From assembly GCF_001466305.1 (NCBI RefSeq), contig NZ_JWID01000004.1:156099-220098 (forward strand): a stretch of DNA of 64,000 nucleotides. Reading direction: 5' to 3'. Shown one piece after another: positions 7,941 to 33,401 of this stretch. The stretch is from Defluviitalea phaphyphila (GTDB lineage: Bacteria > Bacillota > Clostridia > Lachnospirales > Defluviitaleaceae). How positions within the stretch are numbered: position 1 is the stretch's first letter; each line of letters starts with the position of its first letter. The position numbers and the translations under genes are program-made. The notes beneath the pieces were generated by a model, which was given only the letters and a program-made list of their open reading frames with translations, did no database searches and had not been told where the DNA came from.

Positions 7941-8900
7941 TTATATTCTACAATACTGCAATAAGGTTCCAATAGATAATACTAATATATAAGCAGAATT
8001 TATTAATGCAAAATTTTGTACAGCTACTACAAAAGTATCTTTTTTAGTTTGCTTTTTCATAAATATATTAATATTTTTATTAACAGGAATAAAAGTTAAA
8101 AACATTAATACCGATACTATTGGTGTTACTTTTAATACTATCAAAATTAAAATACTAGCATATGAAATATAATACAAGCTTCTAAAAAGTTTTAGAGCTT
8201 TATTTTTCCCTATATATATGGGTAAAGTATACCTTTTATTTTCTATATCATCTTCTATATCACAAATATTATTGGCAAGCATAATATTTGCAATTCCCAT
8301 TATAGCTGGTAAAGAAATGAGAAATATATAAATTACTTCTTCTAAATTCATATTTAATATTATCATTTTATTTTCATAAATAATTTCGACTATACCCATA
8401 TCATAAATATGAATATATGTTGATATAAAAGTTATTACAAATCCCATAAAGAAGCCTGAAAATATTTCTCCAAGGGGCATTCTAGAAATTGGAACAGGGC
8501 CAAAAGAATAAAATATACCTATTAAAAAAGATATGATTCCTAAAAGTAAAATAACTATATTAGTATTTAAAAATAATACGAATCCTAATATTGAAGCTAT
8601 TAATAAAAGTATAAATATAGTAGCAACTACTGTACTTTCCTTTAAGTTATCTCTTACAATAGCATTATGGGATTCATAATTATAACCATAAGTTTTTTTA
8701 GCTTTTTTATAATCCATATAATTATTAATGGCTGTTGTAGCCATATCAAAACATATAAGAGATAAAAACATTAATAAAAAATTTTTAATATTAAATTCCT
8801 TAAATCTATAAAAGGTATATATGTTTCCTAATAAAAAAGGAATAACACTAGCTACTTTTGTTTGAATTTCTACTAGTTTTAAAAAACTGCGAACACTCAT
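7941..8900 (-). CDS. UbiA-family prenyltransferase (MenA-like membrane protein)
   Basis: The 319-residue protein has about eight to nine hydrophobic segments and the two Asp-rich motifs of the UbiA superfamily: NNYMDYKK near residue 59 and DIEDDIENKRY near 217. It most resembles 1,4-dihydroxy-2-naphthoate polyprenyltransferase-like proteins, which attach an isoprenoid chain to an aromatic acceptor at the membrane. No other menaquinone genes are in the window, so the acceptor is uncertain. AAGGAGGG precedes the ATG. The gene lies 75 nt upstream of the CvfB-like gene on the same strand and is divergent from the AEC transporter. Confidence 0.82.
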   Translation of the reverse strand: MSVRSFLKLVEIQTKVASVIPFLLGNIYTFYRFKEFNIKNFLLMFLSLICFDMATTAINNYMDYKKAKKTYGYNYESHNAIVRDNLKESTVVATIFILLLIASILGFVLFLNTNIVILLLGIISFLIGIFYSFGPVPISRMPLGEIFSGFFMGFVITFISTYIHIYDMGIVEIIYENKMIILNMNLEEVIYIFLISLPAIMGIANIMLANNICDIEDDIENKRYTLPIYIGKNKALKLFRSLYYISYASILILIVLKVTPIVSVLMFLTFIPVNKNINIFMKKQTKKDTFVVAVQNFALINSAYILVLSIGTLLQYCRI

Positions 8901-9120
8901 TTATTTCCCTCCTTAATACTTAACTAAATTATTCTACTATAAACTATATTATATTTCAAATATTTTATAATAAAGATAATAAATTTTATTATTAATTAAT
9001 AATTATCATAATATTATCTTATTGCAATTTATAATAAATTTCTTAGTGTCTTTTTTTGCTTTTTATGATATACTTTTCATATCGTTTTTTTTAAAAGAAT
9101 ATAATATGGAGGTATATGTC

Positions 9121-10083
9121 GTGGATATATTTTTGTTTATATTAATGAATAATATCTTTCCTATTTTTATTTTAATTTCTTTGGGATTTTTATTAAGTAA
9201 AAAATTTAATTTAGATATTTATACCATCAGCAAACTTAATTTCTATATATTTGTCCCTACTTTTACTTTTGTAAATTTATATACTACTGATATAGAATTA
9301 AAATTATTAAAAGTTATCATTTTTGCAATATCTTTATTAATTGTAAATTTTATTTTATCTAAAATAATTACTAAATTTAAAAAATATGATTCTAAATTAG
9401 GAAATGCTTTTACAAATTCTATACTTTTTTATAATTCTGGAAACATTGGTATTCCTATTATAAGTTTAGTATTTAGTAATTATCCTTTTATTATAAATGG
9501 AGAAACTCCCTATTTAAACACTGCTTTAGCTATTCAAATTATGGTATTATTAACTCAAAATATAACCACTAATAGTATTGGATTTTTTAATGCAGCTAAA
9601 GCTAATATGCATTGGAAAGATTCTATTAAAAAAATCAGAGCAATGCCAACTTTATATGCTATCCCTACTGCTTTTTTATTAAAATTAATCCCTTTTGATT
9701 TTTCTACTACTCCCATATGGCCAGCTCTTTCCTATATTAAAGGGGGACTAGTTCCTATAGCTTTAATCGCTCTAGGAGTTCAACTTTCTAAAACTAAATT
9801 TGACTTTAAAAATAAAGAAGTATATTTATCTGTATTTATCAGATTATTAGGAGGACCTATTATTGCTTTTTGTTTAATTTTATTATTTGGTTTTGAAGGG
9901 ATAGCAGCTCAAACTCTTATGATTTCTTCTTCTGTTCCAACAGCAGTTAATACAGCTCTTATTGCTGTTGAATATGATAATTGCTCAGATTTTGCTTCAC
10001 AAACTGTAATGATTTCTACTCTTTTAAGTTCTATTACATTAGTATTTGTAATTTATTTTGCAAGAATAGCTTTTCCAATATAA
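9121..10083 (+). CDS. AEC-family (auxin efflux carrier type) transporter
   Basis: The product is a 320-residue membrane protein with about ten hydrophobic segments. NNIFPIFILISLGFLLSKK opens the fold, and GNIGIPIISLVF in the middle and ISSSVPTAVNTALIAVEY near the end are characteristic AEC/BASS-like half-repeat signatures. Bacterial members export or import organic anions such as malate; the substrate is unknown here. The GTG at 9121 is chosen because GGAGG (9108-9112) lies 8 nt upstream. A longer frame from 9022 would add a hydrophobic N-terminus but has no ribosome site. A shared bidirectional terminator follows. Confidence 0.85.
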   Translation: MDIFLFILMNNIFPIFILISLGFLLSKKFNLDIYTISKLNFYIFVPTFTFVNLYTTDIELKLLKVIIFAISLLIVNFILSKIITKFKKYDSKLGNAFTNSILFYNSGNIGIPIISLVFSNYPFIINGETPYLNTALAIQIMVLLTQNITTNSIGFFNAAKANMHWKDSIKKIRAMPTLYAIPTAFLLKLIPFDFSTTPIWPALSYIKGGLVPIALIALGVQLSKTKFDFKNKEVYLSVFIRLLGGPIIAFCLILLFGFEGIAAQTLMISSSVPTAVNTALIAVEYDNCSDFASQTVMISTLLSSITLVFVIYFARIAFPI

Positions 10084-10084
10084 A

Positions 10085-10110
10085 AAGCGAGTACTTTTAT
10101 GTACTCGCTT
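10085..10110. terminator. Bidirectional terminator between AEC transporter and KDG kinase
   Basis: A 10-bp stem AAGCGAGTAC/GTACTCGCTT (10085-10094 and 10101-10110) with a 6-nt loop lies between convergent genes. U-runs are present on both sides, the minus-strand one being better. Confidence 0.85.
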
Positions 10111-10152
10111 AAAATTTGAAATAAGTCCATTTTTGTATAATAAATCTATCTA

Positions 10153-11100
10153 TTATCTATCAATATATTCTGTTTTTCCTATGAATTCTAATAATTGCGG
10201 ATAAGTAGGAAGTCCTTCCATATCACCACTAACTAGAGTAGCCATAGCTCCTACCCCATTCCCATATTGAGCACATTCTGTTAAAGATAATCCTCTTAAA
10301 ATTCCTGATAAAAATCCTGCTGCATATCCATCTCCTGCTCCTACTGTATCTTCCACTTCTTCTACTGGATAACCCGCAACATATTCTTCGTGATTTGTAT
10401 CTGCAACATAACATCCTTCTTTACCTAACTTAATTGCAACTATTTTACATCCCATATCCATAAAAGCTTTTGATATTTCTTCTGGTTCTTTTAATCCTAA
10501 TAAAATTTTCCCTTCATCAATTCCTGGGAAAACAATATCTGCATATTTAGCTATTTCAAGAAGAACTTTCTTTGCTTCTTCAAGACTCCAAAGTTTTAAT
10601 CTTATATTAGGGTCAAAAGATATGGTTATCCCATTATTTTTTGCTATTTTAATTGCTTTAAAAACTGTTTCTTTTGCACTTTCAGATAAAGCTGGAGTTA
10701 TTCCTGTCAAATGCAATATTTTTGTACTTTTTATGTATTCTTCATCTAAGTCCTCAGGAGTTATATTAGAAGCAGCAGAATTTTTACGATAATAATATAC
10801 ATTAGGATTAGTGTGAGCAAATCTTTCTTTAAATAACAGTCCTGTATTATGTTTAGAGTCTGTTATTACTCTTGATACATCTACTCCTTCTCCTCTTATT
10901 ACTGATTTTATGTACCTTCCAAATTCGTCATCCCCTAATTTTGAGAACCATCCAACTTCATGCCCTAATCTTGCAAGTCCTATTGCTACATTAGACTCCG
11001 CTCCAGCTATACTTTTTCTAAAATGATTTACATACCGAAGGGGACCTTTAGAATTAGGGCTAAATAATACCATAGATTCTCCAAATGTAATTACTTCCAT
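10153..11100 (-). CDS. kdgK: PfkB-family sugar kinase, second 2-dehydro-3-deoxygluconokinase (KdgK-like)
   Basis: The 315-residue ribokinase-family enzyme opens with GESMVLFSP, has GAESNVAIGLARLG at residues 33-46 and carries the catalytic anion-hole motif GAGD near 254 within DTVGAGDGYAAG. Close relatives phosphorylate 2-keto-3-deoxygluconate to KDPG. It lies downstream of a separate kdgK and kdgA, but a terminator at 11131-11160 stands between them. It has its own GGAGGG ribosome site. Two KDG kinase-like genes side by side are unusual; this copy may act on a related keto acid or hexose. The family is certain and the substrate likely. Confidence 0.8.
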   Translation of the reverse strand: MEVITFGESMVLFSPNSKGPLRYVNHFRKSIAGAESNVAIGLARLGHEVGWFSKLGDDEFGRYIKSVIRGEGVDVSRVITDSKHNTGLLFKERFAHTNPNVYYYRKNSAASNITPEDLDEEYIKSTKILHLTGITPALSESAKETVFKAIKIAKNNGITISFDPNIRLKLWSLEEAKKVLLEIAKYADIVFPGIDEGKILLGLKEPEEISKAFMDMGCKIVAIKLGKEGCYVADTNHEEYVAGYPVEEVEDTVGAGDGYAAGFLSGILRGLSLTECAQYGNGVGAMATLVSGDMEGLPTYPQLLEFIGKTEYIDR

Positions 11101-11130
11101 ACCCTTTCCCTCCTTAATTTTCTAATTATA

Positions 11131-11160
11131 AAAAAGAGAGTATGTTTTTTAAACATACTC
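11131..11160 (-). terminator. Terminator between the two KDG kinase genes
   Basis: A 10-bp stem GAGTATGTTT/AAACATACTC (11138-11147 and 11151-11160) with a short loop is followed on the minus strand by a run of six U. It ends the kdgA-kdgK transcript, so the downstream kinase needs readthrough or its own promoter. Confidence 0.8.
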
Positions 11161-11213
11161 CTACAGGAAAACAATAATATCAATGAGCAAACTTAATTAA
11201 TTAAAATTATTAA

Positions 11214-12239
11214 TTATCGTTGCACTCTTCCAGAAGCGTCCCCCTTAACTAAAGTCATAACTTCTTCTAAAGAAGCATGATTAAAATCTCCTGGAATTGT
11301 ATGTTTAAGTGCGGAAGCCGCAACGGCAAATTCTAATGCATCTTTGAAGTTTTGACCAGTAACTAAACTATAAATCAAACCTCCTGCAAAAGAATCGCCA
11401 CCTCCCACACGGTCAACGATGCGAATGTCATATTTTCTTGAACGATAGAATTCATTTCCATCGTAGATTAAAGCACTCCATCCATTATCAGATGCAGAAT
11501 AACTTTCTCTTAAAGTTGTCACTACATATTTAAATCCAAATTTTTCTTTCATAGCTTTAAATATGCTCTTATATCCTTCTAATTCTAATTCTCCCTTAGT
11601 AACATCTGTTTCTCCAGGTTTAAAACCTAATACTTTTTCTGCATCTTCTTCGTTTCCAATGCATACATCAACATATTGCATTAAATTAGTCATTACTTTT
11701 TGTGCTTTTTCTGGAGTCCATAATTTTTTTCTATAGTTTAAATCTACACTTACAGTCACTCCATGTTTTTTAGCCGCTTTTAAAGCTTCTTCTGTAAGAA
11801 CAGCTGCTTTATCACTTATAGCAGGAGTAATTCCACTAAAATGGAACCATTCTGCTCCTTCAAAAATTTCATCAAAATTAAAATCTGAAACATCTGCTTC
11901 TGCAATAGCAGAATTAGCTCTATCATAAACTACTTTAGATGGGCGCATAGAAGCACCAGTTTCTAAGAAATAGATACCTAATCTATTTCCACCTCTAGCA
12001 ATATAATCAGTTTTTACTCCATATTGTCTCAAACTGTTTAAAGCAGACTGTCCAATAGGATTATCAGGAAGTTTAGTTACAAAATAAGCATCAAGTCCAT
12101 AATTAGCTAAGGATACAGCAACGTTAGCTTCTCCTCCACCATACACAACATCAAAAGAATTAGCTTGTTGAAATTTTAAGTATCCAGGTGTTGAAAGTCG
12201 GAGCATAATTTCTCCCATAGTAACTACTTTTTTACTCAT
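11214..12239 (-). CDS. kdgK: 2-dehydro-3-deoxygluconokinase (KDG kinase)
   Basis: The 341-residue PfkB-family kinase has VTMGEIMLRLSTPGY at the N-terminus, YGGGEANVAVSLANYG at residues 33-48 and a catalytic GGGD near 279 (GGGDSFAGG, with Gly in place of the Ala of the usual GAGD). This longer form with GGGD is typical of Firmicute KDG kinases. It converts KDG plus ATP to KDPG. The gene starts 14 nt after kdgA and completes that two-gene operon. Base composition is somewhat less AT-rich than its neighbours. It is probably controlled by the IclR regulator at 13133-13897 through the operators upstream of kdgA. Confidence 0.9.
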   Translation of the reverse strand: MSKKVVTMGEIMLRLSTPGYLKFQQANSFDVVYGGGEANVAVSLANYGLDAYFVTKLPDNPIGQSALNSLRQYGVKTDYIARGGNRLGIYFLETGASMRPSKVVYDRANSAIAEADVSDFNFDEIFEGAEWFHFSGITPAISDKAAVLTEEALKAAKKHGVTVSVDLNYRKKLWTPEKAQKVMTNLMQYVDVCIGNEEDAEKVLGFKPGETDVTKGELELEGYKSIFKAMKEKFGFKYVVTTLRESYSASDNGWSALIYDGNEFYRSRKYDIRIVDRVGGGDSFAGGLIYSLVTGQNFKDALEFAVAASALKHTIPGDFNHASLEEVMTLVKGDASGRVQR

Positions 12240-12253
12240 ATTAATTCCACTCC

Positions 12254-12898
12254 TTATTTTCTAGCTTCTTTTATCTTTTCAATAAATTGTTTTGCTGTTT
12301 CTGTAATAAGTTCATAATTTCCTGTTTTAGCTCCAGCAGTTAATTTTCCACCAACTCCTACAGCAATACATCCATTTTTAATCCATTGATCTACATTATC
12401 TAAACTTACTCCTCCAGTAGGCATAAGTACTGCTTGTGGAAGAGGTCCTTTTATTGCTTTAATTATATCTGGTCCAAAAGCACTTCCTGGGAATACTTTA
12501 ATTACATCTGCCCCAGCTTCCATTGCATGAATCATTTCTGTAATAGTCATACATCCAGGCATATATGGAACTTGATATCTATTACATAATTTAGCTGTTT
12601 CTAGATCAAAACCAGGACTTACTATGTATTCTGCTCCTGAAAGGATAGCTACTCTTGCAGTTTCACTATCTAACACTGTTCCTGCTCCAACAATTAATTC
12701 ATCTTTAGTAAATTTAGATTTTAAAGATTCGATTACTTTATGAGCATTAGGAACAGTAAAAGTAACTTCAATGGCTGGAATTCCGCCTTCAATACAAGCT
12801 CTAGCAATCTTTTCTGCTTTTTCTTCATTTTCAGCCCTAACAACTGCTACAATACCAACATCTGTAATTTTTTTCAAAGTTTCAATTTTGGGAATCAT
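12254..12898 (-). CDS. kdgA: 2-dehydro-3-deoxyphosphogluconate (KDPG) aldolase
   Basis: The 214-residue class I aldolase has Arg21 in AVVRAE, Glu44 in EVTF and the Schiff-base Lys134 in IKVFPG, matching the catalytic positions of E. coli Eda. GAGTVLD, SPGFD and MPTGGV mark the phosphate-binding part of the TIM barrel. It splits KDPG into pyruvate and glyceraldehyde-3-phosphate, the last step of the pectin/hexuronate and Entner-Doudoroff routes. It is first in an operon with kdgK. Two operator-like palindromes lie 20-55 nt upstream. Confidence 0.95.
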   Translation of the reverse strand: MIPKIETLKKITDVGIVAVVRAENEEKAEKIARACIEGGIPAIEVTFTVPNAHKVIESLKSKFTKDELIVGAGTVLDSETARVAILSGAEYIVSPGFDLETAKLCNRYQVPYMPGCMTITEMIHAMEAGADVIKVFPGSAFGPDIIKAIKGPLPQAVLMPTGGVSLDNVDQWIKNGCIAVGVGGKLTAGAKTGNYELITETAKQFIEKIKEARK

Positions 12899-12918
12899 TA
12901 ATATCTCAGTCCTTTCCG

Positions 12919-12953
12919 TTTCACTATGTGAAATTGTATTCCACTATATGAAC
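12919..12953 (-). promoter_or_regulatory. Two IclR-type operators upstream of kdgA-kdgK
   Basis: A perfect palindrome TTTCACTATGTGAAA lies at 12919-12933 and a degenerate copy TTCCACTATATGAAC at 12939-12953. Their centres are 20 bp apart, about two helical turns, so both sites face the same side of the DNA. A TTGCTT...CATATA promoter candidate overlaps the second site. They fit cooperative binding by the adjacent IclR-family protein. The sequence pattern is direct; the regulator assignment is inferred. Confidence 0.65.
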
Positions 12954-13121
12954 TTTGTTTTTATTATAAGCAATCTTTTATTGTTATGCAAAATACTAAA
13001 TAAGTCATTATATTTCAATTATCTTTAATTTAATTCAATTTATTCGTTTATTCTTTATTATTCTTATTATATCTTATTTTTATATAAATATACTATTATT
13101 TTATGCTAACACTTCATAATT

Positions 13122-13159
13122 AAAGAACTAGGTTACTTAATTTTATAACCTAATTCTTT
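13122..13159 (-). terminator. Hairpin overlapping the end of the IclR gene
   Basis: Arms 13122-13135 and 13146-13159 pair over 14 bp with one G-U pair as minus-strand RNA. The right arm contains the last codons of the regulator and the stop codon is near the other arm. The following U-run is weak, so it may be an inefficient terminator or an RNA-stability element. Confidence 0.45.
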
Positions 13160-13897
13160 AGATAATTCTGATGCATAATATAATAGCCATTTTGAAAACT
13201 TTTCTATTTTTTCATCAGTCATTCTAGTAACAGGACCAGATATACTAATAGCCGCATAGGGCTTTCCTGTATAATCAAAAATAGCTGCTCCTATACATCT
13301 AACATCTAATTCATTCTCCTGTTCATCTATGGCAAATCCTTTTTTTCTAATACGTTCTAACTCTTTTTTCATATCATTAAAATCGGTAATAGTAAAATCA
13401 GTATATTGTTTTATTTCGCTTTTATTCCAAATGTCCTGCACTTCTTCTTCTTCAAGTCCTGCCATTATAGCTTTTCCTACAGCTGTACAATACATAGGGC
13501 TTCTTCTTCCTATTTTAGAATGCATTCTAATAGTGTTTTCTGATTCTACTTTATCTATGTAAATAATATCTATATTTTCTCTTATAACTAAATGAACAAC
13601 TTCATTAGTTTTTTTCATTAGTTCTTTTAAATATGGTCGTGCTATTTCTAAAATATTAATATTCGATATTTTTTTGTTTCCCAGTTCAAATAATTTTAAT
13701 GTAATTTTATATTTATTTGTTAAAGAACTTTGTTCTACATATCCTTTTACTATTAATGTAGCCAATAATCTATGTACTGTACTTTTATGAAGCCCTAATT
13801 TGGAACTCAATTCTGCTAATCCTAACCCTTCCTCATAATTTGATAATACTTCTAGTATAGATAATGCTCTATCCACAGATTGAACTATTTCTTGCAT
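13133..13897 (-). CDS. IclR-family transcriptional regulator (probable KdgR)
   Basis: The 254-residue protein has an N-terminal winged HTH (ALSILEVLSNYEEGLGLAEL, then LGLHKSTVHRLLATL at residues 34-48). The C-terminal effector domain shows YCTAVGKAIMAGL, RKKGFAIDEQENELDVRCIGA and AISISGP. IclR proteins usually bind small carboxylates or sugar acids. It lies upstream of kdgA-kdgK on the same strand, separated by 234 bp that contain the paired palindromes, so a KdgR role with KDG as ligand is likely. GAAAGGAAG precedes the ATG. The stop codon lies in a hairpin. Confidence 0.88.
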   Translation of the reverse strand: MQEIVQSVDRALSILEVLSNYEEGLGLAELSSKLGLHKSTVHRLLATLIVKGYVEQSSLTNKYKITLKLFELGNKKISNINILEIARPYLKELMKKTNEVVHLVIRENIDIIYIDKVESENTIRMHSKIGRRSPMYCTAVGKAIMAGLEEEEVQDIWNKSEIKQYTDFTITDFNDMKKELERIRKKGFAIDEQENELDVRCIGAAIFDYTGKPYAAISISGPVTRMTDEKIEKFSKWLLYYASELSKELGYKIK

Positions 13898-13993
13898 ATT
13901 ACTCTTCCTTTCTAAATATTCCTTGTATTCCCATATTAAACTTTTTATTATATAGTTTAATATTTAAATAATTATTGTATAGATATTAAAATA

Positions 13994-14015
13994 AGCTGTC
14001 AAATTAAAGACAGCT
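13994..14015 (-). terminator. Probable terminator after the chemoreceptor gene
   Basis: A 7-bp stem AGCTGTC/GACAGCT with an 8-nt loop lies about 80 nt past the chemoreceptor stop. On the minus strand it is followed by a U-rich tract (TTATTTTAAT). It is a moderate-strength candidate. Confidence 0.5.
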
Positions 14016-14095
14016 AGTACAAAAATAAATTTATGTAAAAAATATGATTATAAATACAATTATAATAGTAGCATAATTTTAAAAAATAGAAAATA

Positions 14096-15628
14096 TTAAT
14101 TTTCCATCTTTAAATCAAAACCTATTACTCCTATTATATTATTGTTATTATAAATAGGAAATGATATGGTTATACAAGGTTTTTTTGTTATTGCTGAAAT
14201 ATATACATCAGAAACATATTCTTCTCCCTTAATACTTCTTTTAAACCATTCACGAATATTACCATTAGCAATCCCAGATTCAGGAATTGAACATACAAAT
14301 CTTCCCTTTAAATCATTACTCCATATTGCTTCTATAAATTTATATTTTTCTATAAGACTTGATAAAATTTCTTTATGAATTTTTGAATCCATACTAAGTA
14401 TATTTTTATTTTTATTTATTTCTTCTTTAATAATTTCTAAAGCATTTGATATATTTTGTTTAATTTTTTCATTATCTAAATTTACTATATCATAATCTAA
14501 TTTATTAAATACCTCCATTAAATTTTGTGAAGCATTATTTAATCTTTTACCCATATGTGCTATCTCTTCCATACCTTTTTTTTGAAATTTTACCGAGGTA
14601 TGTACCTTATCTACACTATTATTAACTTGATTAATTTTTTCTTCTATATTTTCAATAATATTAGTTACTTCTTCTGTTACAGAAACTTCTTCTTGAGATA
14701 AAGTACTTATTTTTTCAACCATGTTTACTATGTTTTTAAATGTCACATTAATATTAATAAGGTTTTTTTCAATATTATTAGAAACTTTCATTCCTTCAGA
14801 TACTCTTTTAGAATTCTCCTCCATAATTTCATAAACATTTTTTATTTCCTTATTGATATTATCAACAAGTTCTCCTATATTTTTTACTGCTTCCCCTGTA
14901 TTATACGAAAGTTTTCTAATTTCATCAGCAACTACTCCAAACCCTTTTCCAGCTTCTCCAGCTCTTGCAGATTCAATAGATGCATTCAAAGCTAAAAGAT
15001 GAGTTTGCCTAGATATTTCATCAACTGTATCCAAAATATATTGTATTTGCTTTGATACTTTGCTTAAATTTTCTACATATTTCATAGCACTATTAGTAGT
15101 TTCTTGTATATCTTTTACATTATTTACAATATTCATTATTTCATTTAAACTTTTTGTAATTATATGTTCTGATTCTAAACTTTGAGTTTGAGTAGAGTAG
15201 GAAGTATTTCCAGTCTCTTCTATCATTTTAATCAATTCTTTTATTTTAGTTATAGTATTATAAATATTACTACTTACTGTTTCATTTAAATCTGTCATTT
15301 CCTTTATTCTTAAAAATAATTCTTTTGTAAATCCATTATTTTCTTCTAATGTAATTCCTAATTGTTCTGATACTGATAAAACTTGACTTGAAGCTACTTG
15401 AACTTCATTATTAAAATTTTTGAACTCTGTTTCATATTTATTCTTTTCTTTTTTTAAATTTTTAATTTCTTTAACATAAAAAATTCGAAAATATTCTGTT
15501 ATAATTATTAAAATAATTGCGTAAAACCAAAGTTTTATTCCAAATCCTTGATTTAATATAAGACCGATATAAATTATAGAAAATAATATTAATGATAATT
15601 GAATAACTCTTGTGCCATGCTTTTGCAT
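14096..15628 (-). CDS. Methyl-accepting chemotaxis protein with C-terminal cytoplasmic Cache-like domain
   Basis: The 510-residue protein begins at ATG 15628, which has AGGAGGGG upstream; the longer frame lacks a site. Two adjacent membrane helices occupy about residues 10-48 with almost no loop, so there is no extracellular sensor. No HAMP domain is recognisable. The coiled-coil signalling domain has the highly conserved tip around residues 200-240 ([34 protein letters not shown]). The last 80-90 residues look like a Cache/PDC-type ligand-binding module ([20 protein letters not shown], then [19 protein letters not shown]). The order is therefore reversed compared with ordinary chemoreceptors, and the sensor should face the cytoplasm. 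No che genes are nearby. Confidence 0.87.
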
Positions 15629-15650
15629 ATTATCCCCTCCTAAACAAAAT

Positions 15651-15689
15651 AAAGGCATTTAAAACGAGTTATTCGTCTTAAACGCCTTT
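15651..15689 (-). promoter_or_regulatory. Stable hairpin in the leader of the chemoreceptor gene
   Basis: Arms 15651-15667 and 15673-15689 pair as minus-strand RNA over 17 bp, with two G-U pairs and a 5-nt loop. The stem ends about 10 nt before AGGAGGGG. It matches no riboswitch class I recognise. It could be an attenuator, a processing site or a weak terminator of upstream transcription. Confidence 0.5.
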
Positions 15690-15797
15690 GTTTAATACAA
15701 TAATACAGTCTTTATACTAACATAAGGTATTTATATATGCAATATTTCTTTAATTATTTTAGAAAATAGTTAATACTTTAAAAGTCAATTTTCTATG

Positions 15798-15806
15798 TGA
15801 TATAAT
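15798..15806 (+). promoter_or_regulatory. Extended -10 promoter of the acyl-CoA thioesterase gene
   Basis: TGATATAAT at 15798-15806 is a consensus extended -10 element about 55 nt before the gene. No good -35 is present, as is usual for this promoter type. Confidence 0.55.
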
Positions 15807-15860
15807 AAATTTTAAATTTTAAAATAGAAAATATATAAAGTTATTTAGGAGGATAGAAAT

Positions 15861-16334
15861 ATGAATGGAAAAACTCCCAAAGAATCCGCAGTTGAAATGA
15901 CTGAATTGGTAATTCCTAATGATACAAATGTTCTTGGTAATTTACTTGGCGGTCGAATTATGCATTGGATTGATATAGCAGGAGCAATGGCTGCTTCAAG
16001 ACATTCTAATAAAACCGTAGCTACTGTATATGTGGACAGCCTAGATTTTAAACATCCGGTTAGAATGGGTGAACTAGTTATGTTAAAAGCTAAATTAACT
16101 TGGGTAGGAAGGACTTCTATGGAAGTTAAAGTAAAAGTATATGCTGAAAATCTTAAAACAGGTGCTGTAATATTGACTAATCAAGCTTATTTAACTTTTG
16201 TTGCCTTAGATGATAATGGAAAGCCTACTCCAGTACCTCCTCTTATTCCTGAAACAGAGGAGGAAAAAAAAGAATATGAAGAAGCAGAAAAAAGACGAAT
16301 TAAAAGACTAAGTAAAAAGACGAGAAATGATTAA
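15861..16334 (+). CDS. Hotdog-fold acyl-CoA thioesterase (YkhA/BACH type)
   Basis: The 157-residue protein has the single hotdog domain of cytosolic acyl-CoA hydrolases. NVLGNLLGGRIMHWIDIAGA at residues 24-43 carries the conserved Gly/Asp-containing helix, followed by VDSLDFKHPVRMGE and LTNQAYLTFVALD. Such enzymes hydrolyse fatty acyl-CoA to CoA and free acid. The C-terminus has a charged Glu/Lys tail. AGGAGG lies 9 nt before the ATG. The gene stands alone, and its stop codon lies inside a terminator shared with exoA. Confidence 0.9.
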   Translation: MNGKTPKESAVEMTELVIPNDTNVLGNLLGGRIMHWIDIAGAMAASRHSNKTVATVYVDSLDFKHPVRMGELVMLKAKLTWVGRTSMEVKVKVYAENLKTGAVILTNQAYLTFVALDDNGKPTPVPPLIPETEEEKKEYEEAEKRRIKRLSKKTRND

Positions 16335-16346
16335 ATCTCGTCTTTT
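16315..16346. terminator. Bidirectional terminator between thioesterase and exoA
   Basis: An 11-bp stem AAAAGACGAGA/TCTCGTCTTTT (16315-16325 and 16336-16346) with a 10-nt loop sits between convergent genes and contains the thioesterase stop codon. Confidence 0.85.
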
Positions 16347-17097
16347 AAAATATTTCAAGTCCTATTGGGCAGTGATCTGATCCCATTACATCACTATAAA
16401 TCATCGCATCTTTTAATTCATTTTTTAAACTATTTGAAACGCAAAAATAATCTATACGCCATCCTGCATTATTAGCTCTTGCATTAAACATATAAGACCA
16501 CCAAGTATACGCTCCTTGTTTTTCTGGATAAAAATACCTAAAAGTATCAATAAATCCTGCATTTAATAGTGCATCAAATTTACTTCTTTCTTCATCAGTA
16601 AATCCCGCATTTTTACGATTGGTCTTTGGATTCTTCAAATCTATTTCCTTATGGGCAACATTTAAATCTCCACAAAAAATAACTGGTTTTGTCTTTTCTA
16701 ATTTTTTTAAATAGGTTAAAAAAGAATCTTCCCATTTCATACGATAATCAAGTCTTGTAAGTCCTTTTTGAGAATTAGGAGTATATACAGTTACTAAAAA
16801 AAACTTATGAAATTCTAGGGTAATTACTCTTCCTTCTTTATCATGTTCTTCTTCTCCTATTCCATAAACTACATTAATAGGCTTTATTTTGGAAAAAATA
16901 GCAGTTCCTGAATAACCTTTTTTCTCTGCATAATTCCAATATTGATAATATCCATCAAGGTCTAATTCAATTTGTCCTTCTTGCAATTTAGTTTCTTGAA
17001 TACAAAAAATATCTGCATCAATTTCTTTAAAAAAATCCATAAATCCTTTTTTTACACAAGCTCTAAGTCCATTTACATTCCAAGATATTAGTTTCAC
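16345..17097 (-). CDS. exoA: Exodeoxyribonuclease III / AP endonuclease
   Basis: The 250-residue enzyme of the EEP family begins at GTG 17097 ([13 protein letters not shown]), after GGGAGAGAAG. Catalytic motifs are IQETKLQ (metal-binding Glu), [16 protein letters not shown] (Asp and Asn), [16 protein letters not shown] and GSDHCPI (catalytic His). It nicks DNA at abasic sites and degrades 3' ends in base-excision repair, acting after glycosylases such as the Ung at 60053-60727. Length is normal. It appears monocistronic. Confidence 0.95.
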
Positions 17098-17225
17098 ATT
17101 CTTCTCTCCCATCAATTGTAATTAAAAATTTTTATTATTTATTATATTATACATGGGAAAAAGAATATATAAAATAATATTTTGTAAATTTATGTATTAT
17201 AAAAATACTAAAAACATAATATACT

Positions 17226-17528
17226 TTAATTAGCATTGGCTAACTTATCACTAAAATAATTTTCCATAATCTTTTTTAAAGCATTAATACTACTATTATG
17301 ACAACGTTCTATAGTAATATTATTTTTTTCAGCTTCTGCTACCGCACATCTAACCATTTTATGCGATACTGTTGATGTAAACAATATGATAAGGTCAGGA
17401 TTTCCTATTTTTGAGCGCAAACTTCCTGATACTTTTGTAAATACTTTTACTTTGCAATTATGCCTTTTACATATTTCTTTGTATTTACATTCCATCCTCT
17501 CATTGCCTCCAATAATTACTATACTCAA
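17226..17528 (-). CDS. DUF2325-family small protein
   Basis: The 100-residue protein starts best at TTG 17528 (SIVIIGGNERME), because AAGGAGG lies 8 nt upstream; an ATG 21 nt earlier sits on the wrong side of the ribosome site. It has the DUF2325 pattern: an N-terminal Rossmann-like strand VIIGG, CKYKEICKRHNCKVKVF in the middle, PDLIILFTSTVSHKMVR, and a C-terminal helix. The three Cys and nearby His could bind metal. The function of the family is unknown. It lies alone upstream of exoA on the same strand. Confidence 0.8.
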   Translation of the reverse strand: MSIVIIGGNERMECKYKEICKRHNCKVKVFTKVSGSLRSKIGNPDLIILFTSTVSHKMVRCAVAEAEKNNITIERCHNSSINALKKIMENYFSDKLANAN

Positions 17529-17677
17529 TGTAAAATCCTCCTTATACATTTTTCATTTATACTTTTTTACATATTCTGTATTGTTTTTATAATATATACA
17601 ATATTAAATATACTATTATTTAAATAACTTGTCAATAATATTGATAATCATTTTCAATATTTTTTTTAAAATTTATA

Positions 17678-17745
17678 TTGACAATTTTATATTTTTATTT
17701 ATAATGTGTATTGAGTGTATTATTTATAATATTACACTTAATACA
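17678..17745 (+). promoter_or_regulatory. Promoter and operator of the GntR/ABC operon
   Basis: A near-consensus promoter is present: -35 TTGACA at 17678-17683, 16-nt spacer, -10 TATAAT at 17700-17705. Just downstream, 13-bp arms TGTATTGAGTGTA (17707-17719) and TACACTTAATACA (17733-17745) form an inverted repeat with one mismatch that covers the expected transcription start. This is the classic position of a YtrA-type autorepressor site. Confidence 0.8.
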
Positions 17746-17764
17746 TTTGTTTAGGAGGAGGTTC

Positions 17765-18154
17765 ATGTTTGAAATAGATTTAAAAAGTAGAAAACCAATC
17801 TATGAACAACTTGTAGATAAATTTAAATCTCTAATTATTAATGGCGTGTTAAAACCTAATGAAAAGATGCCCTCTGTCAGAGAATTAGCTTCTCAAATCA
17901 CAGTTAATCCTAATACAATACAAAAGGCATATAAAGAATTAGAACGTCAAGGATATATATATTCTATAAGAGGCAGAGGAAACTTTGTAAATGAAAAATT
18001 TAAAAAGGTGGATGAAAATAAAGTGAAAAAGTTAAAAGATGAAATTACTAAAAATTTACTAGAACTCATCTACATGGGAATTGAAAAAGAGGAACTTCTT
18101 AATCTTATAGAAGAAATATATCAAAATTCAAAGGGAGGGGAAAATAGTGATTAA
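17765..18154 (+). CDS. GntR-family regulator, YtrA subfamily
   Basis: The 129-residue protein starts at ATG 17765, after TTAGGAGGAGG; the longer frame overlaps the promoter. It opens with FEIDLKSRKPIYEQLVDKFK and has a winged HTH (MPSVRELASQITVNPNTIQK, then ELERQGYIYSIRGRGNFV). The short C-terminal dimer helix lacks a ligand-binding domain, as in YtrA. The stop overlaps the ABC ATPase start by 8 nt. It should repress its own operon through the inverted repeat at 17707-17745. Known relatives respond to cell-wall antibiotics; the inducer here is unknown. Confidence 0.92.
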   Translation: MFEIDLKSRKPIYEQLVDKFKSLIINGVLKPNEKMPSVRELASQITVNPNTIQKAYKELERQGYIYSIRGRGNFVNEKFKKVDENKVKKLKDEITKNLLELIYMGIEKEELLNLIEEIYQNSKGGENSD

Positions 18155-19046
18155 AGTTGAATCTCTATATAAATCTTTTGAAAAAATTAAAGTCTTAAAT
18201 AATATTAATCTTAATGTAAAAAAAGGTTCTATATATGGCTTAATTGGTCCTAATGGCGCTGGTAAAACCACGTTGATAAAACATTTAACTGGTACTTTTA
18301 AACAGGATAAAGGGAAAATAACAATTGATGGTGAACCAATATATGAAAATATAAAAACTAAGCAAAAAATAGGATATATCCCCGATGAACTTTTCTTTTT
18401 TTCACAATACAATATAAAACAAATGGCTTCATTTTATAAAAAAATTTATCCAACTTGGAATCAAAAACGTTATGAAAATCTTCAAAAATTCTTTAATATA
18501 AATGAAAAAAGAAAAATCTCTCATCTATCTAAAGGTATGCAAAGACAAGTTGCTTTTTGGCTTACTCTTTCTATTATGCCAAAGGTCATGATTTTAGATG
18601 AACCCATTGATGGATTAGACCCTTTAATCAGGAAAAAAGTTTGGAATCTTATTATTCAAGATGTGGCTGAAAGAGAAATGAGCGTACTTATTTCTTCTCA
18701 TAATTTAAAAGAAATTGAGAATGTATGCGATTATGTTGGAATACTTAATAATGGAGAAATTGTTCTTGAAAGAGACTTAGATGATTTAAAATCTGATATA
18801 TATAAAATTCAAGTGGCTTATAAAAATGATATTCCACAAAAACTTATTAATAAAGATAATATTCTTTACAAAGAAAAAAGAGGCAGTGTATGGGTTTTAA
18901 TTATGAAGGGAAATCAAAAAGATTGCTTAAACCTTATTAACTCTTATAATCCACTTTTTGTAGACGTATTACCCCTTACCCTTGAAGAAATATTTATGTA
19001 TGAGTTAGGAGGAGAAGGATATGAAATCGAAGGAATTATTCTTTAA
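18147..19046 (+). CDS. ABC transporter ATP-binding protein (YtrB-like)
   Basis: The 299-residue ATPase begins at GTG 18147 behind AGGGAGGGG. It has Walker A GPNGAGKTT near residue 34, the signature LSKGMQRQ near 130, Walker B VMILDEP near 150 and the switch His in SSHNLKE near 185. The last 90 residues are the variable C-terminal extension seen in ABC-2 exporters. It powers the large permease encoded by the next gene, which starts 26 nt inside this gene. The GntR-ATPase-permease order matches YtrA-type operons. Confidence 0.93.
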   Translation: MIKVESLYKSFEKIKVLNNINLNVKKGSIYGLIGPNGAGKTTLIKHLTGTFKQDKGKITIDGEPIYENIKTKQKIGYIPDELFFFSQYNIKQMASFYKKIYPTWNQKRYENLQKFFNINEKRKISHLSKGMQRQVAFWLTLSIMPKVMILDEPIDGLDPLIRKKVWNLIIQDVAEREMSVLISSHNLKEIENVCDYVGILNNGEIVLERDLDDLKSDIYKIQVAYKNDIPQKLINKDNILYKEKRGSVWVLIMKGNQKDCLNLINSYNPLFVDVLPLTLEEIFMYELGGEGYEIEGIIL

Positions 19047-21039
19047 CTTTAATTTAATTAAAGAAAACTTAAAACGTTTTTGGCCCATTAGTGTTATATA
19101 TTTTTTAGCACTATTTGCCGTAAAACCTCTGCACATATTAAGTATGTTTGCTAATAATGAACTAAATGAAGAAATTTATCATAATGATTACTATTTAACC
19201 CGTGCTTCTTATGAAGTCGAAAGTATATTTATATTATGTACATCTATATTATTTGCTATTGTATTATTTAATTATCTTCAATCAAAAAAGTCTACTGGTA
19301 TGATGCATGCCCTGCCTTTTACAAGAAATCAGTTATTTAATAGCCATATATTATCAGGAATGATTTTACTTATAGTTCCCCTTATTTTAAATACAATTAT
19401 ATTATACCTAATATGTACTAACTTAGAACAAGATATTCTTCCAACCTGGTTTATTAATTTCTTTTCTATAAAAAGAATTTGGACTGATTTTATATTTAGT
19501 ATACTTTCATCTTCTATAATCTTTTTAATTGCTACTTTCGCTGGAATGATCACTGGAACATTATTTATACATATCTTATGTGCAGTAGTTTTTCCATTTT
19601 TACCTATTACTTTGATAGGATTCTCTACGGTTTTATTAGAAAAATTTTTATTCGGATTTAATTCAAGTATTTATTTAGGAAATACTTACTTAGAACAAAA
19701 TATTATTCCTTTGGTATACACTATTAATTCTTCTCCCCTAAATTGGAAAAGAATTATATTTTTCCTAGGTGTATGTATTGCATTATATATTTTAAGTTAT
19801 ATCTCATACAAAAAAAGAAACTTAGAAAATGCTTCTAATCCCATTGTTTTTAATAGCTTAAAAACTGTATTTAAATACGGAGTAACTTTTTGCAGCATGA
19901 GTATGGTAGGAATTTATCTTTCAGAACTTTTTTATAAAAGCCCATATCAAAATCTTTGGCTATATCTAGGAATGTTTTTAGGCTCATTAATTGGATATGT
20001 TATTTCAGAAATGCTTATAGAAAAAACTATATGGGTATTCCATAAATTAAAAGGATACTCCATATATGTAGGAATTATACTTATTATAGGTGTTATTTTA
20101 AAAACAGACTTATTAGGATATGAAACAAGAATCCCTGATATTAATGAAATAAAAGGAGTGGTATATGATATATCTTATAATGATAAAGATTTAATTATCC
20201 CAATTGATGATAAGGATATTATAAAAAAAATCCAAAACATTCATAAACGAATTATCCTTGATAAAAACAATATAATAAATAATCAAAATGATGTAAAAAC
20301 TCATTTACCAATAACATATATACTAAATAATAATAAAACTATAAAAAGAAATTACATTATTCCTTATGATTATATTGCTAATGATATAAATCATCAACAA
20401 ATTATAGTTTCTTCCCAATATAAAAAAATGTATAATTATAATTTATTTCGTACTAATTATAACGATATACAAAAAATTGAGCTAGTATCTAATATAGTAA
20501 ATAGAAATCTTATCATTACAAATCCTGAAGAAATTAAAGAATACTTAGAAATTTTAAAACAAGAAATTCTTGATGCATCTTATGAAGAATTAACAAGTGA
20601 AACTGATAATTGGGGTTATATAAATATTTATTTAAAGGACGCAAATTCAACATCAACTCTTAACATTGATTATGAAAATAAATTAATACGTAAGAGTTTT
20701 GAAAAATATTATACAAATCTAGAAAATTGGCTTATAAAAAAGAACTATATTCAAAATGCTAGAATCTTGCCTCAAGATGTAGATAAAATTATTATAAAAG
20801 AATTAAAAGACCCTATAAATAACGTATATGATTTATTAGGGAATATAGATGAATCCTTACTTTATGTAAATACTTGGGAAATAACCGACAAAAATAAAAT
20901 AGAAGAAATTCTTCGTTCTTATCTTAACTCTAGAAGGGATAACAAATATAAATATTTAGTAGAAATACATGTTAATAAATTTTTCACAATAGAATATGGA
21001 TACTATACTGAAGATTCTCTTCCTGATTTTATTAAGTAA
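19021..21039 (+). CDS. ABC-2 type permease with large C-terminal soluble domain
   Basis: The 672-residue protein has about eight to nine membrane helices in residues 20-365. They include a segment with the conserved ABC-2 feature LPFTRNQLFNSHI near residue 98. About 300 hydrophilic residues rich in Asn, Asp, Ile and Lys follow. The size is roughly twice that of YtrC or YtrD, and the tail is the notable part. It may lie outside the cell and sense or bind the transported compound, but that is inferred. The start lies 26 nt inside the ATPase gene, so translation is coupled. A strong terminator follows. Confidence 0.85.
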   Translation: MKSKELFFNFNLIKENLKRFWPISVIYFLALFAVKPLHILSMFANNELNEEIYHNDYYLTRASYEVESIFILCTSILFAIVLFNYLQSKKSTGMMHALPFTRNQLFNSHILSGMILLIVPLILNTIILYLICTNLEQDILPTWFINFFSIKRIWTDFIFSILSSSIIFLIATFAGMITGTLFIHILCAVVFPFLPITLIGFSTVLLEKFLFGFNSSIYLGNTYLEQNIIPLVYTINSSPLNWKRIIFFLGVCIALYILSYISYKKRNLENASNPIVFNSLKTVFKYGVTFCSMSMVGIYLSELFYKSPYQNLWLYLGMFLGSLIGYVISEMLIEKTIWVFHKLKGYSIYVGIILIIGVILKTDLLGYETRIPDINEIKGVVYDISYNDKDLIIPIDDKDIIKKIQNIHKRIILDKNNIINNQNDVKTHLPITYILNNNKTIKRNYIIPYDYIANDINHQQIIVSSQYKKMYNYNLFRTNYNDIQKIELVSNIVNRNLIITNPEEIKEYLEILKQEILDASYEELTSETDNWGYINIYLKDANSTSTLNIDYENKLIRKSFEKYYTNLENWLIKKNYIQNARILPQDVDKIIIKELKDPINNVYDLLGNIDESLLYVNTWEITDKNKIEEILRSYLNSRRDNKYKYLVEIHVNKFFTIEYGYYTEDSLPDFIK

Positions 21040-21070
21040 GATAACTATCATTCCATATATTTATTAAAAT

Positions 21071-21125
21071 AAAAAGAAACATTCCTATGACTAAATGTTT
21101 TTAGTATAGAGAATGTTTCTTTTTT
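21071..21125 (+). terminator. Terminator of the GntR/ABC operon
   Basis: Outer arms AAAAAGAAACATTC (21071-21084) and GAATGTTTCTTTTT (21111-21124) enclose a smaller inner stem and end in a U-run. Confidence 0.85.
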
Positions 21126-21195
21126 ATTAAGATCTTAATTTTTTTATCACTATATTTATATCCATATTATACATATATTATATATTGTTATGTAA

Positions 21196-21891
21196 TTAGT
21201 TTTGATCCAATGTAAAATCTATTAAACCAATTCCTAATATCTCAAGTTTTGCATAATAATATTCTCTGAAATCTGAAGTCATAGTTACATCAAAAGATAC
21301 CTCAGTAGAGCCGCTAAATACTGTTCTCAGTTGTGACTCTGTTGAAATTTCTCCTACTTTTGGCAATGATAACTTTAGTCCACCTGTATTCAATATTTCA
21401 AGAGCTTCATTCAAAGTTAACTTAGCTGAATATGATATGTCTTCTTCATTTCCTTGCACTCTTATAATTTCATCAAACCATCTATTTCCATCATGACTCT
21501 CCCATTCAGGAACTCCAGATATGATAGAGCAATTACCTTCAGATAAATATATTCCTGAGTTATCTCTATCAAAATATACTGACTTATGACCACCTATATC
21601 AGAATAAAAATGTCCGTTAAGTACTTTTAAAGTTAAATATGATTTAGTTTTCGCTCCTGCTGTATATAGATATGATGTATCAGATACAGTCTTATAAGCA
21701 TCTACATAACCTGTTCCTCCTAATGGAACGATACCTCCTATTGATTGAGTAATTATATTTTTCTCATAAGCTCCTCTAGGAACAATAGTTTCTATTTCAT
21801 TAGTTTTTGTTGGAGCTGCACTTACAAATGTACTTGAAGTCATTAACAGTGTCATTATTACTCCTGTAGCAATTTTATTAATTTTTTTCAT
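21196..21891 (-). CDS. Secreted protein of unknown function
   Basis: The 231-residue protein starts at ATG 21891 behind GGAAGGAG. A classic signal peptide (KKINKIATGVIMTLLMTSS, then FVSA-AP) predicts cleavage near residue 25. The mature part is Ser/Thr/Gly-rich and predicted mostly beta. It has no transmembrane segment, lipobox, LPXTG or cell-wall repeat. A patch YTAGAKTKSYLTLKVLNGHF and the sequence WESHDGNRWFDEIIRVQG may help family searches. I do not recognise the family. It is monocistronic and divergent from the TPR gene. It is likely released to the medium or loosely wall-bound. Confidence 0.75.
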   Translation of the reverse strand: MKKINKIATGVIMTLLMTSSTFVSAAPTKTNEIETIVPRGAYEKNIITQSIGGIVPLGGTGYVDAYKTVSDTSYLYTAGAKTKSYLTLKVLNGHFYSDIGGHKSVYFDRDNSGIYLSEGNCSIISGVPEWESHDGNRWFDEIIRVQGNEEDISYSAKLTLNEALEILNTGGLKLSLPKVGEISTESQLRTVFSGSTEVSFDVTMTSDFREYYYAKLEILGIGLIDFTLDQN

Positions 21892-22039
21892 TATAATCTC
21901 CTTCCATGTAATTAATATTATTAATTTCAATTTCTTTACTTGATATATAATTACAATTAATGTATAATATGGATACTAAGATATAATAACATAAATTATA
22001 TCTTATTTCAAATTATTTTTAAAAAAGGAGGTGATTGCC

Positions 22040-32543: not shown

Positions 32544-33401
32544 TTAAATATTGTCACTATCATGAGAATCATCTAAACTTTTTAATAACATTAAAATACT
32601 TTGTCTTTTCATCTTAAATGACTGTGCTAAAATTGTTTGACTGGCCATTAAAAGCATATTATTCTTAGTATATTCCATCATAGTCTCTGCCATATCTGCA
32701 TCTGTTATCCTACTTTCTGCTGCTGTTAAATTTTCTTCGTAATTTTCTAAGTTACTCAAAGTATGTTCTAACCTATTTTGCATAGCTCCTAAATTTGCTC
32801 TTTGAGATGAGACTATACTAATAGCATTATCTAAACTTTCCATAGCTTTAGTAGCATTATCTATTGTAGAAATATCTAAATAATTAATTCCTATTCCAAC
32901 GGCAGTCATATCTCCAATTACTAATTCTACCATATCTCCAGCATTAGGACCTACTTGAAGATTTATCCCATTTCCTTTATCTTGTTTAGAACCATCTAAA
33001 ATAGGCTCTGTATTAAATTCTGCATTACTTGCAAATTGAGAAATACTTTCTTTTAAATATTGAAATTCTTCATTAAGTTTTGCCCGGTCTTCGTCAGTAT
33101 TAGTTCCATTAGCAGCTTGTACAGCTAACTCCCTCATTCTTTGTAATACAGAATGAATTTCATTCATTGTTCCTTCTGCTGTTTGTATAAGAGAAATACC
33201 ATCTAAAACATTCCTTTGAGCTTGTCTTAATCCTCTAATTTGAGCTTTCATTTTTTCAGAAATAGCAAATCCTGCTGGATCATCTGCTGCAGAATTAATT
33301 CTCTTTCCTGTAGATAAACGATATGCTAATACATTTTGTCTTCTCTGAATATAATTCATATTATTAATAATTCTAAGTTCTGATACAAAATTAATATACA
33401 T
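32544..33401 (-). CDS. Flagellin (orphan, atypical termini)
   Basis: The 285-residue protein has the D1 core of flagellin (LSTGKRINSAADDPAGFAIS at residues 29-48, KAQIRGLRQAQRNVLDGISL, MRELAVQAANGTNT) and the C-terminal D0/D1 helix (NYEENLTAAESRITDADMAE, then TILAQSFKMKRQSILMLL). The middle domain is short. The N-terminus (MYINFVSELRIINNMNYIQ) differs from the usual RINHNI type. About ten acidic/polar residues (DDSHDSDNI) extend past the normal LL end, where the D0 helix lines the filament lumen. No other flagellar genes are nearby. A SigD-type promoter precedes it. It may be a minor filament subunit. Confidence 0.9.
   Translation of the reverse strand: MYINFVSELRIINNMNYIQRRQNVLAYRLSTGKRINSAADDPAGFAISEKMKAQIRGLRQAQRNVLDGISLIQTAEGTMNEIHSVLQRMRELAVQAANGTNTDEDRAKLNEEFQYLKESISQFASNAEFNTEPILDGSKQDKGNGINLQVGPNAGDMVELVIGDMTAVGIGINYLDISTIDNATKAMESLDNAISIVSSQRANLGAMQNRLEHTLSNLENYEENLTAAESRITDADMAETMMEYTKNNMLLMASQTILAQSFKMKRQSILMLLKSLDDSHDSDNI

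Follow-up and report, generated by a model that had tools for sequence, protein, structure and literature searches.

In prokaryotes, extracellular sensing is attributed mainly to Cache modules. Among them, the dCache_1 amino-acid sensors PctA, CtaA, Mlp24 and Tlp3 are double, extracellular and placed N-terminal to the HAMP and MCP domains. In PctA, R126 bonds the carboxyl group of the ligand, D173 is one of the key residues in the amino-acid motif, both W128 and Y144 are positioned for ligand contact, and Y129 is structural (PMC10104139). McpB of Bacillus subtilis, a chemoreceptor for asparagine with a Cache sensor, has the classical extracellular double Cache with a HAMP domain (PMC7542364). 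Cache families working inside the cell have also been described, namely YkuI_C, Diacid_rec and the dCache_1AM of Actinobacteria (PMC4822843; PMC10104139).

A poorly characterised chemoreceptor subfamily carries its ligand-binding domain at the C-terminus. At least 17 Pfam domain types occur in this position, of which the CZB receptors such as TlpD are the best populated (PMC7390727), and archaeal receptors with C-terminal domains are on record (PMC9680633). Where direct ligands are concerned, little is known about how cells link chemotaxis to their internal metabolism.

Here we describe a receptor gene in the window, the stretch of 64,000 nucleotides of Defluviitalea phaphyphila DNA that was analysed. 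The gene is composed of the following parts.

14096..15628, reverse strand: whole receptor gene, 510 aa plus stop (ORF and Pfam)
15488..15607, reverse strand: membrane hairpin with hydrophobic stretches at residues 8–26 and 29–47, both ends predicted cytoplasmic (Kyte-Doolittle and charge pattern of the sequence)
14963..15472, reverse strand: N-terminal arm of the signalling coiled coil, residues 53–222, continuous with TM2, no HAMP (Pfam and AlphaFold2 model)
14504..14947, reverse strand: C-terminal arm of the signalling coiled coil, residues 228–375 (Pfam and AlphaFold2 model)
14474..14503, reverse strand: linker, residues 376–385, of low model confidence (AlphaFold2 full-length model)
14099..14473, reverse strand: C-terminal PDC/Cache module, predicted cytoplasmic, residues 386–510 (Pfam, AlphaFold2 and fold comparison)

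The reading frame opens with an ATG at 15628, behind a ribosome-site-like AGGAGG; an alternative longer reading gives 520 aa from 15658. In the 510-aa receptor, Pfam assigns MCPsignal (PF00015) to residues 162–329 (E 2.6e-33) and, both above the cut-off, dCache_1 to residues 382–509 (E 5.2e-12) and MCP-like_PDC_1 to residues 459–509 (E 5.9e-10). The HAMP family is absent from the 14 Pfam matches with E up to 1. In the AlphaFold2 full-length model (mean pLDDT 83.9), the signalling domain forms the coiled-coil hairpin with conserved tip typical of MCPsignal, with the tip at residues 223–227 and helices 29–222 and 228–375 around it. Helix 29–222 runs unbroken from TM2 into the signalling arm, so no HAMP lies between them. 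Since the model is a monomer with a pTM of 0.45, it lends no support to any signalling geometry.

At the N-terminus, the two hydrophobic stretches (Kyte-Doolittle, 19-residue window, cut-off 1.6) are separated by a loop of 2 residues; the net charge is +2 ahead of the first stretch and +4 over the 20 residues that follow the second. The membrane hairpin would serve only as an anchor. The classical transmembrane layout, an external sensor between TM1 and TM2 followed by HAMP, is not found in this receptor; the sensor comes after the signalling domain, as in the chemoreceptors with C-terminal ligand-binding domains. Seven ordinary receptors measured in the same genome end 159–162 aa past the tip glutamate. 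The PDC module starts where these receptors end, and is therefore attached at the membrane-side end of the hairpin. CheW domains occur in three places of this genome, together with four flagellin matches.

We modeled the C-terminal module alone with AlphaFold2 from an alignment of 45 sequences, reaching a pLDDT of 87.0 and a pTM of 0.80. The model adopts the PDC fold with the long N-terminal helix of the Cache/PDC superfamily. Foldseek places KinD (4jgo_A) first, with E 1.6e-6. A second structural aligner superimposes the same structure with Z 17.0 and 2.3 Å over 123 residues, followed by WalK (Z 14.8), McpA (Z 14.5) and the amino-acid receptors Mlp24, Tlp3, CtaA and PctC (Z 14.2 to 13.2). The distal domains of CtaA, Mlp24, Tlp3 and PctA are among the matches listed for the model, and a sequence profile of the module retrieves McpA, Tlp3, KinD, PctA and CtaA. 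The tandem of two PDC modules that makes up dCache_1 is absent, the match covering only profile positions 15–153 of 240 before the protein ends. By this comparison, the module is a single PDC instead of a double Cache, and it matches the half of the dCache_1 profile that is distal to the membrane. A chance fold or a chance Pfam match is ruled out by the Pfam scores, the module model and the fold comparison.

The original prediction had described a chemoreceptor of reversed domain order, and Pfam, AlphaFold2 and fold comparison agree on this order of hairpin, MCP coiled coil and C-terminal Cache/PDC. Its two adjacent membrane helices without an external sensor are confirmed by the short loop, and its coiled coil following without HAMP by the Pfam result and the unbroken helix. 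It had staked itself beforehand on the C-terminal region folding as Cache/PDC, which holds in the predicted structure at the pLDDT and the KinD Z score given above. The position of this module at the C-terminus stands, whereas its proposed extent, the last 100 residues, was too short; the module spans the last ~125 residues.

Of 57 near genomes, 7, counting the own one, have relatives with this C-terminal module at E below 1e-29. With the limit at E 1e-30, strong matches occur in 16 of 391 genomes of the class and 31 of 398 of the phylum, the own genome again being counted in each, which rules out a one-off fusion. Such a match is missing from all 7 other genomes of the same family, plasmids yielded no relative at E 1e-5, and one scan for named relatives returned a single generic MCP, from Clostridium nigeriense.

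The anchors of these relatives vary. Among 41 aligned members, window included, Kyte-Doolittle predicts no membrane helix in 9, one in 18 and two in 14, and with a weaker cut-off at least 3 of the 18 one-helix members gain a second. With the one-helix rows set aside, so that only members with none and with two are compared, these labels show 4 changes each on the tree, at least 3 of them forced by well-supported branches. The signalling arm comes in two lengths, mostly 236–246 versus 212–219 residues from the tip to R459, a difference of near four heptads. In all variants the PDC stays at the extreme C-terminus; in members with an MCP tip, a tail of 0–8 residues follows the profile match, with one exception of 27 residues (L097).

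A CheW-like protein that lacks membrane helices also carries this module, inserted into the middle of its CheW domain, in 6 of 6 ORFs from six genomes of genus g311 (L124:1715-2578, L125:1791-2624 and L171-L174; Pfam was run on two of the six proteins). This arrangement suggests that a sensor can pass its signal to a chemosensory array with no dedicated receptor. We notice that the CheW-PDC gene adjoins a flagellar hook/rod-type gene in the two g311 loci that were read more widely. In another genome (G769, L126:697-2363), an MCP ORF is directly followed by a separate PDC-module ORF, either a split receptor or a frameshift.

Because relatives have no membrane helix or a single N-terminal anchor, and because of the copy embedded in CheW, the PDC module is predicted to be cytoplasmic, in keeping with the side of the membrane originally proposed. 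An external C-terminus is ruled out by the helix-less relatives and the CheW-embedded copy. The module shares its place inside the cell with YkuI_C, Diacid_rec and dCache_1AM, and its C-terminal position with YkuI_C; these differ from it in belonging to other Cache families and in being parts of an EAL protein, a transcription regulator and a stand-alone protein, not of chemoreceptors (PMC4822843; PMC10104139).

Superimposing the sequence of the module on that of PctA brings the dCache_1AA positions into register with the following residues, to which a conserved cysteine is added.

14246..14254, reverse strand: R459-x-W461, aligned with PctA R126 and W128, on the carboxylate side of the amino-acid pocket (alignment)
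14201..14203, reverse strand: Y476, aligned with PctA Y144 (alignment)
14174..14176, reverse strand: C485 (family conservation)
14114..14116, reverse strand: D505, aligned with PctA D173 (alignment)

In addition, F462 aligns with PctA Y129. PctA Y121 is not kept, being A454 in the window receptor within a family consensus of GIANA. The fold and the four contact positions are thus shared with the membrane-distal PDC of PctA, CtaA, Mlp24 and Tlp3, whereas the module differs from these sensors in being single, C-terminal, predicted cytoplasmic and without the Y121 tyrosine.

R459, W461, Y476 and D505 occur jointly in 50 of 51 strong modules and in all 50 complete ones, the 51st being a truncated remnant, and D505 is kept in 51/51; these rows, like all residue counts below, are uncorrected for relatedness. 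The set is complete in 6/6 CheW-PDC proteins, in 8 of 16 conventional dCache controls, which were fetched by similarity to the module, and in none of the 14 weaker C-terminal members, whose residue at position 461 is Y or F instead of W. Since half of the conventional controls carry the set, it marks the dCache_1 amino-acid lineage, not this receptor family.

In order to describe the gene context, we read 53 loci of about 8–16 kb each, 43 strong (window included) and 10 weaker. An asparagine synthetase gene (AsnB) is the immediate neighbour of the receptor gene (position +1 or −1) at 9 of the 53 loci, made up of 9/43 strong and 0/10 weaker ones. About 0.07 adjacencies would be expected for 53 loci, given 81 AsnB-domain matches in 43 genomes and assuming 3000 genes per genome. 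The nine cases represent four families, with close relatives of one genus counted repeatedly in three genomes: G415, G292, G251 and G343 (f50); G522 (f170); G136, G185 and G110 (f46); and G556 (f178). Three arrangements are seen, AsnB lying downstream on the same strand, divergent, or upstream on the same strand, and the adjacency label undergoes 4 changes on the tree, gains or losses. The same families contain members without an adjacent AsnB, namely G662 (f170), G637 (f178), and G081 and G114 (f50).

AsnB was identified by TIGR01536 for three loci; glutamine synthetase III, GatB, P-II and NifH were identified by Pfam and Amt by TIGR00836. The f50 gene order is gatC-like, gatA, gatB, glutamine synthetase III, receptor and asnB, with 105–133 bp before the receptor and 125–256 bp after it. 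In G522, P-II and Amt lie on the side of the receptor opposite AsnB. A P-II gene follows 53 bp past the receptor in G754, and then Amt, while Amt/P-II pairs flank the receptor on both sides in G771. In G537 it is nifH and two P-II-like genes that come next, and in G679, a genome outside the 53 loci, nifH adjoins a receptor gene with a broken reading frame. Altogether, at least one of the sought nitrogen genes is within 5 genes at 12 of the 53 loci; they are absent at 31 of the 43 strong loci, the window locus among them.

As a control, we examined the other MCPs of the nine AsnB genomes: none of the 128 matches comes closer than 5 kb to an AsnB match, and one is found at a distance of 10 kb, in G556, in a comparison that covers only genomes chosen for AsnB adjacency. 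The window receptor itself is not flanked by any nitrogen gene, and its genome has its two AsnB matches elsewhere. On one side of the receptor gene is a sugar-acid (KDG-type) cluster that includes an IclR-type regulator, and on the other a divergent gene of thioesterase-like type, all named by sequence reading.

We also notice that the asnB beside the receptor is split in G415, G251 and G292 (L117, L133 and L134; genus g80) by an element of ~4–6 kb with a recombinase-like ORF of ~500 aa, which resembles a skin-type intervening element. The gene is uninterrupted in G343, and G114 perhaps also carries the splitting element.

That the module would sense a cytoplasmic small molecule is strengthened by the conserved pocket motif and by the gene context of the relatives. 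The explanation we favour, and consider rather probable, is a cytoplasmic amino-acid sensor that feeds nitrogen status into chemotaxis. Computation shows the domain order, the lack of HAMP and of an external sensor, the PDC fold, the side of the membrane and the conservation of the pocket; for the ligand class, the direction of the response and the behavioural role, we infer the following. The sole sensor would be the single PDC/Cache, which is attached where the signalling hairpin ends at its C-terminal side and lies in the cytoplasm beside the membrane. A cytoplasmic amino acid would bind to it, its carboxylate held by R459 and W461 and its amino group by Y476 and D505, as in PctA. Binding may alter the helix that links the module to the C-terminal methylation arm, and this change would pass through the packing of the four-helix bundle to CheA activity. 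The scheme would mirror the usual order: instead of reaching the first arm by way of TM2 and HAMP, the sensor would act on the second. An amino acid reporting nitrogen status is the probable signal in several lineages, asparagine or glutamine being the first candidates, and the cell would bias its swimming by its internal nitrogen state.

The pocket could instead receive another carboxylate, pyruvate or some other keto or organic acid, as in KinD of Bacillus subtilis (4jgo; 4jgp with pyruvate). KinD is the closest fold, its structure entry includes the pyruvate complex and R131A mutants, and its carboxylate arginine aligns with R459, conserved in 50/50 complete modules. However, the invariant D505, at the amino-group position, has no aspartate counterpart in the aligned stretch of KinD, which moreover is an extracellular histidine-kinase sensor, and the nitrogen-gene context favours amino acids, so we regard this ligand class as unlikely. 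C485 raises a further alternative, a redox, thiol or metal sensor in the reducing cytoplasm, perhaps together with H418, in which the pocket residues would be merely structural. The cysteine is present in 51/51 strong modules and 6/6 CheW-PDC proteins versus 1/16 of the similarity-fetched controls, and H418 in 47 of 50 modules. Such chemistry would have to work with a single invariant cysteine, kept in 8 of the 14 weaker members and replaced by N in the other 6, and with a histidine lost in 6/6 CheW-PDC proteins and all 14 weaker members; a cofactor motif was not found either, and we consider this role improbable.

PDC domains dimerise through their long helix, and the module occupies the place of a HAMP, both of which would suit a non-sensing part for dimerisation or a membrane-proximal structural cap. 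Yet the known-pocket residues are the most conserved part of the module, CheW, into which it is also inserted, has no need of such a cap, and the gene neighbours recur; a purely structural role is very doubtful. Finally, the signalling bundle itself might sense, as McpB of B. subtilis does for ethanol, with the module only tuning adaptation. Cytoplasmic sensing by an MCP signalling domain is on record (PMC7542364), but it leaves the conserved pocket unexplained, and we give this proposal hardly any credence.

Extending the preferred amino-acid sensor to a widespread nitrogen-status chemoreceptor family of Bacillota is a tentative step. In such a family, a cytoplasmic amino-acid Cache, also present in CheW in one lineage, might read internal asparagine or glutamine, and swimming would be tied to nitrogen assimilation and, in some lineages, also to the fixation of nitrogen. 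If the idea is true, cells may steer by their internal amino-acid or nitrogen status. The conserved pocket, predicted cytoplasmic, the variable anchors and the repeated occurrence beside genes of asparagine synthetase, glutamine synthetase, P-II/Amt and nitrogenase make a direct test possible on one small soluble domain.

Chemoreceptors with C-terminal ligand-binding domains and intracellular Cache modules are already published, and the topology is therefore not new. The main text of the survey of such receptors, supplement aside, shares with our case the sensor after the MCP signalling domain and the cytoplasmic sensing; it names CZB, not this PDC subtype, and gives no ligand or nitrogen link for it (PMC7390727). 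Our full-text literature search, which covered the main text of mostly open-access papers, found no description of the PDC family, the cytoplasmic amino-acid motif, the nitrogen-gene link or CheW-PDC, so these may be in print. New here are the PctA-type contact positions kept in a C-terminal module predicted to be cytoplasmic, the cysteine C485, rare among the conventional Cache sensors, and the adjacency to asparagine synthetase and other nitrogen genes.

The own genome contains a second reversed receptor (L010 / L123:6225-7853, contig C1) of 543 aa with two N-terminal membrane helices. It has 287 residues past the tip, ending in a different Cache-like domain without a Pfam match, and its C-terminus has no sequence match to a solved structure in the PDB at E up to 1. 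Its neighbour is not AsnB; the gene in question is purF, and the receptor lies near a purF-containing cluster.

The leader of the window receptor gene contains one more feature.

15651..15689, reverse strand: imperfect 17-bp leader hairpin, immediately 5' of the ribosome site (sequence and folding)

This strong hairpin is followed by a U-rich stretch, has a z of −3.95 and is unique in the genome. It could be an attenuator. A riboswitch in the leader finds no support, as no Rfam family matches at gathering scores within window positions 8000–22000. Elsewhere in the window, a flagellin N-terminal domain match is located at 32985–33377 on the reverse strand.
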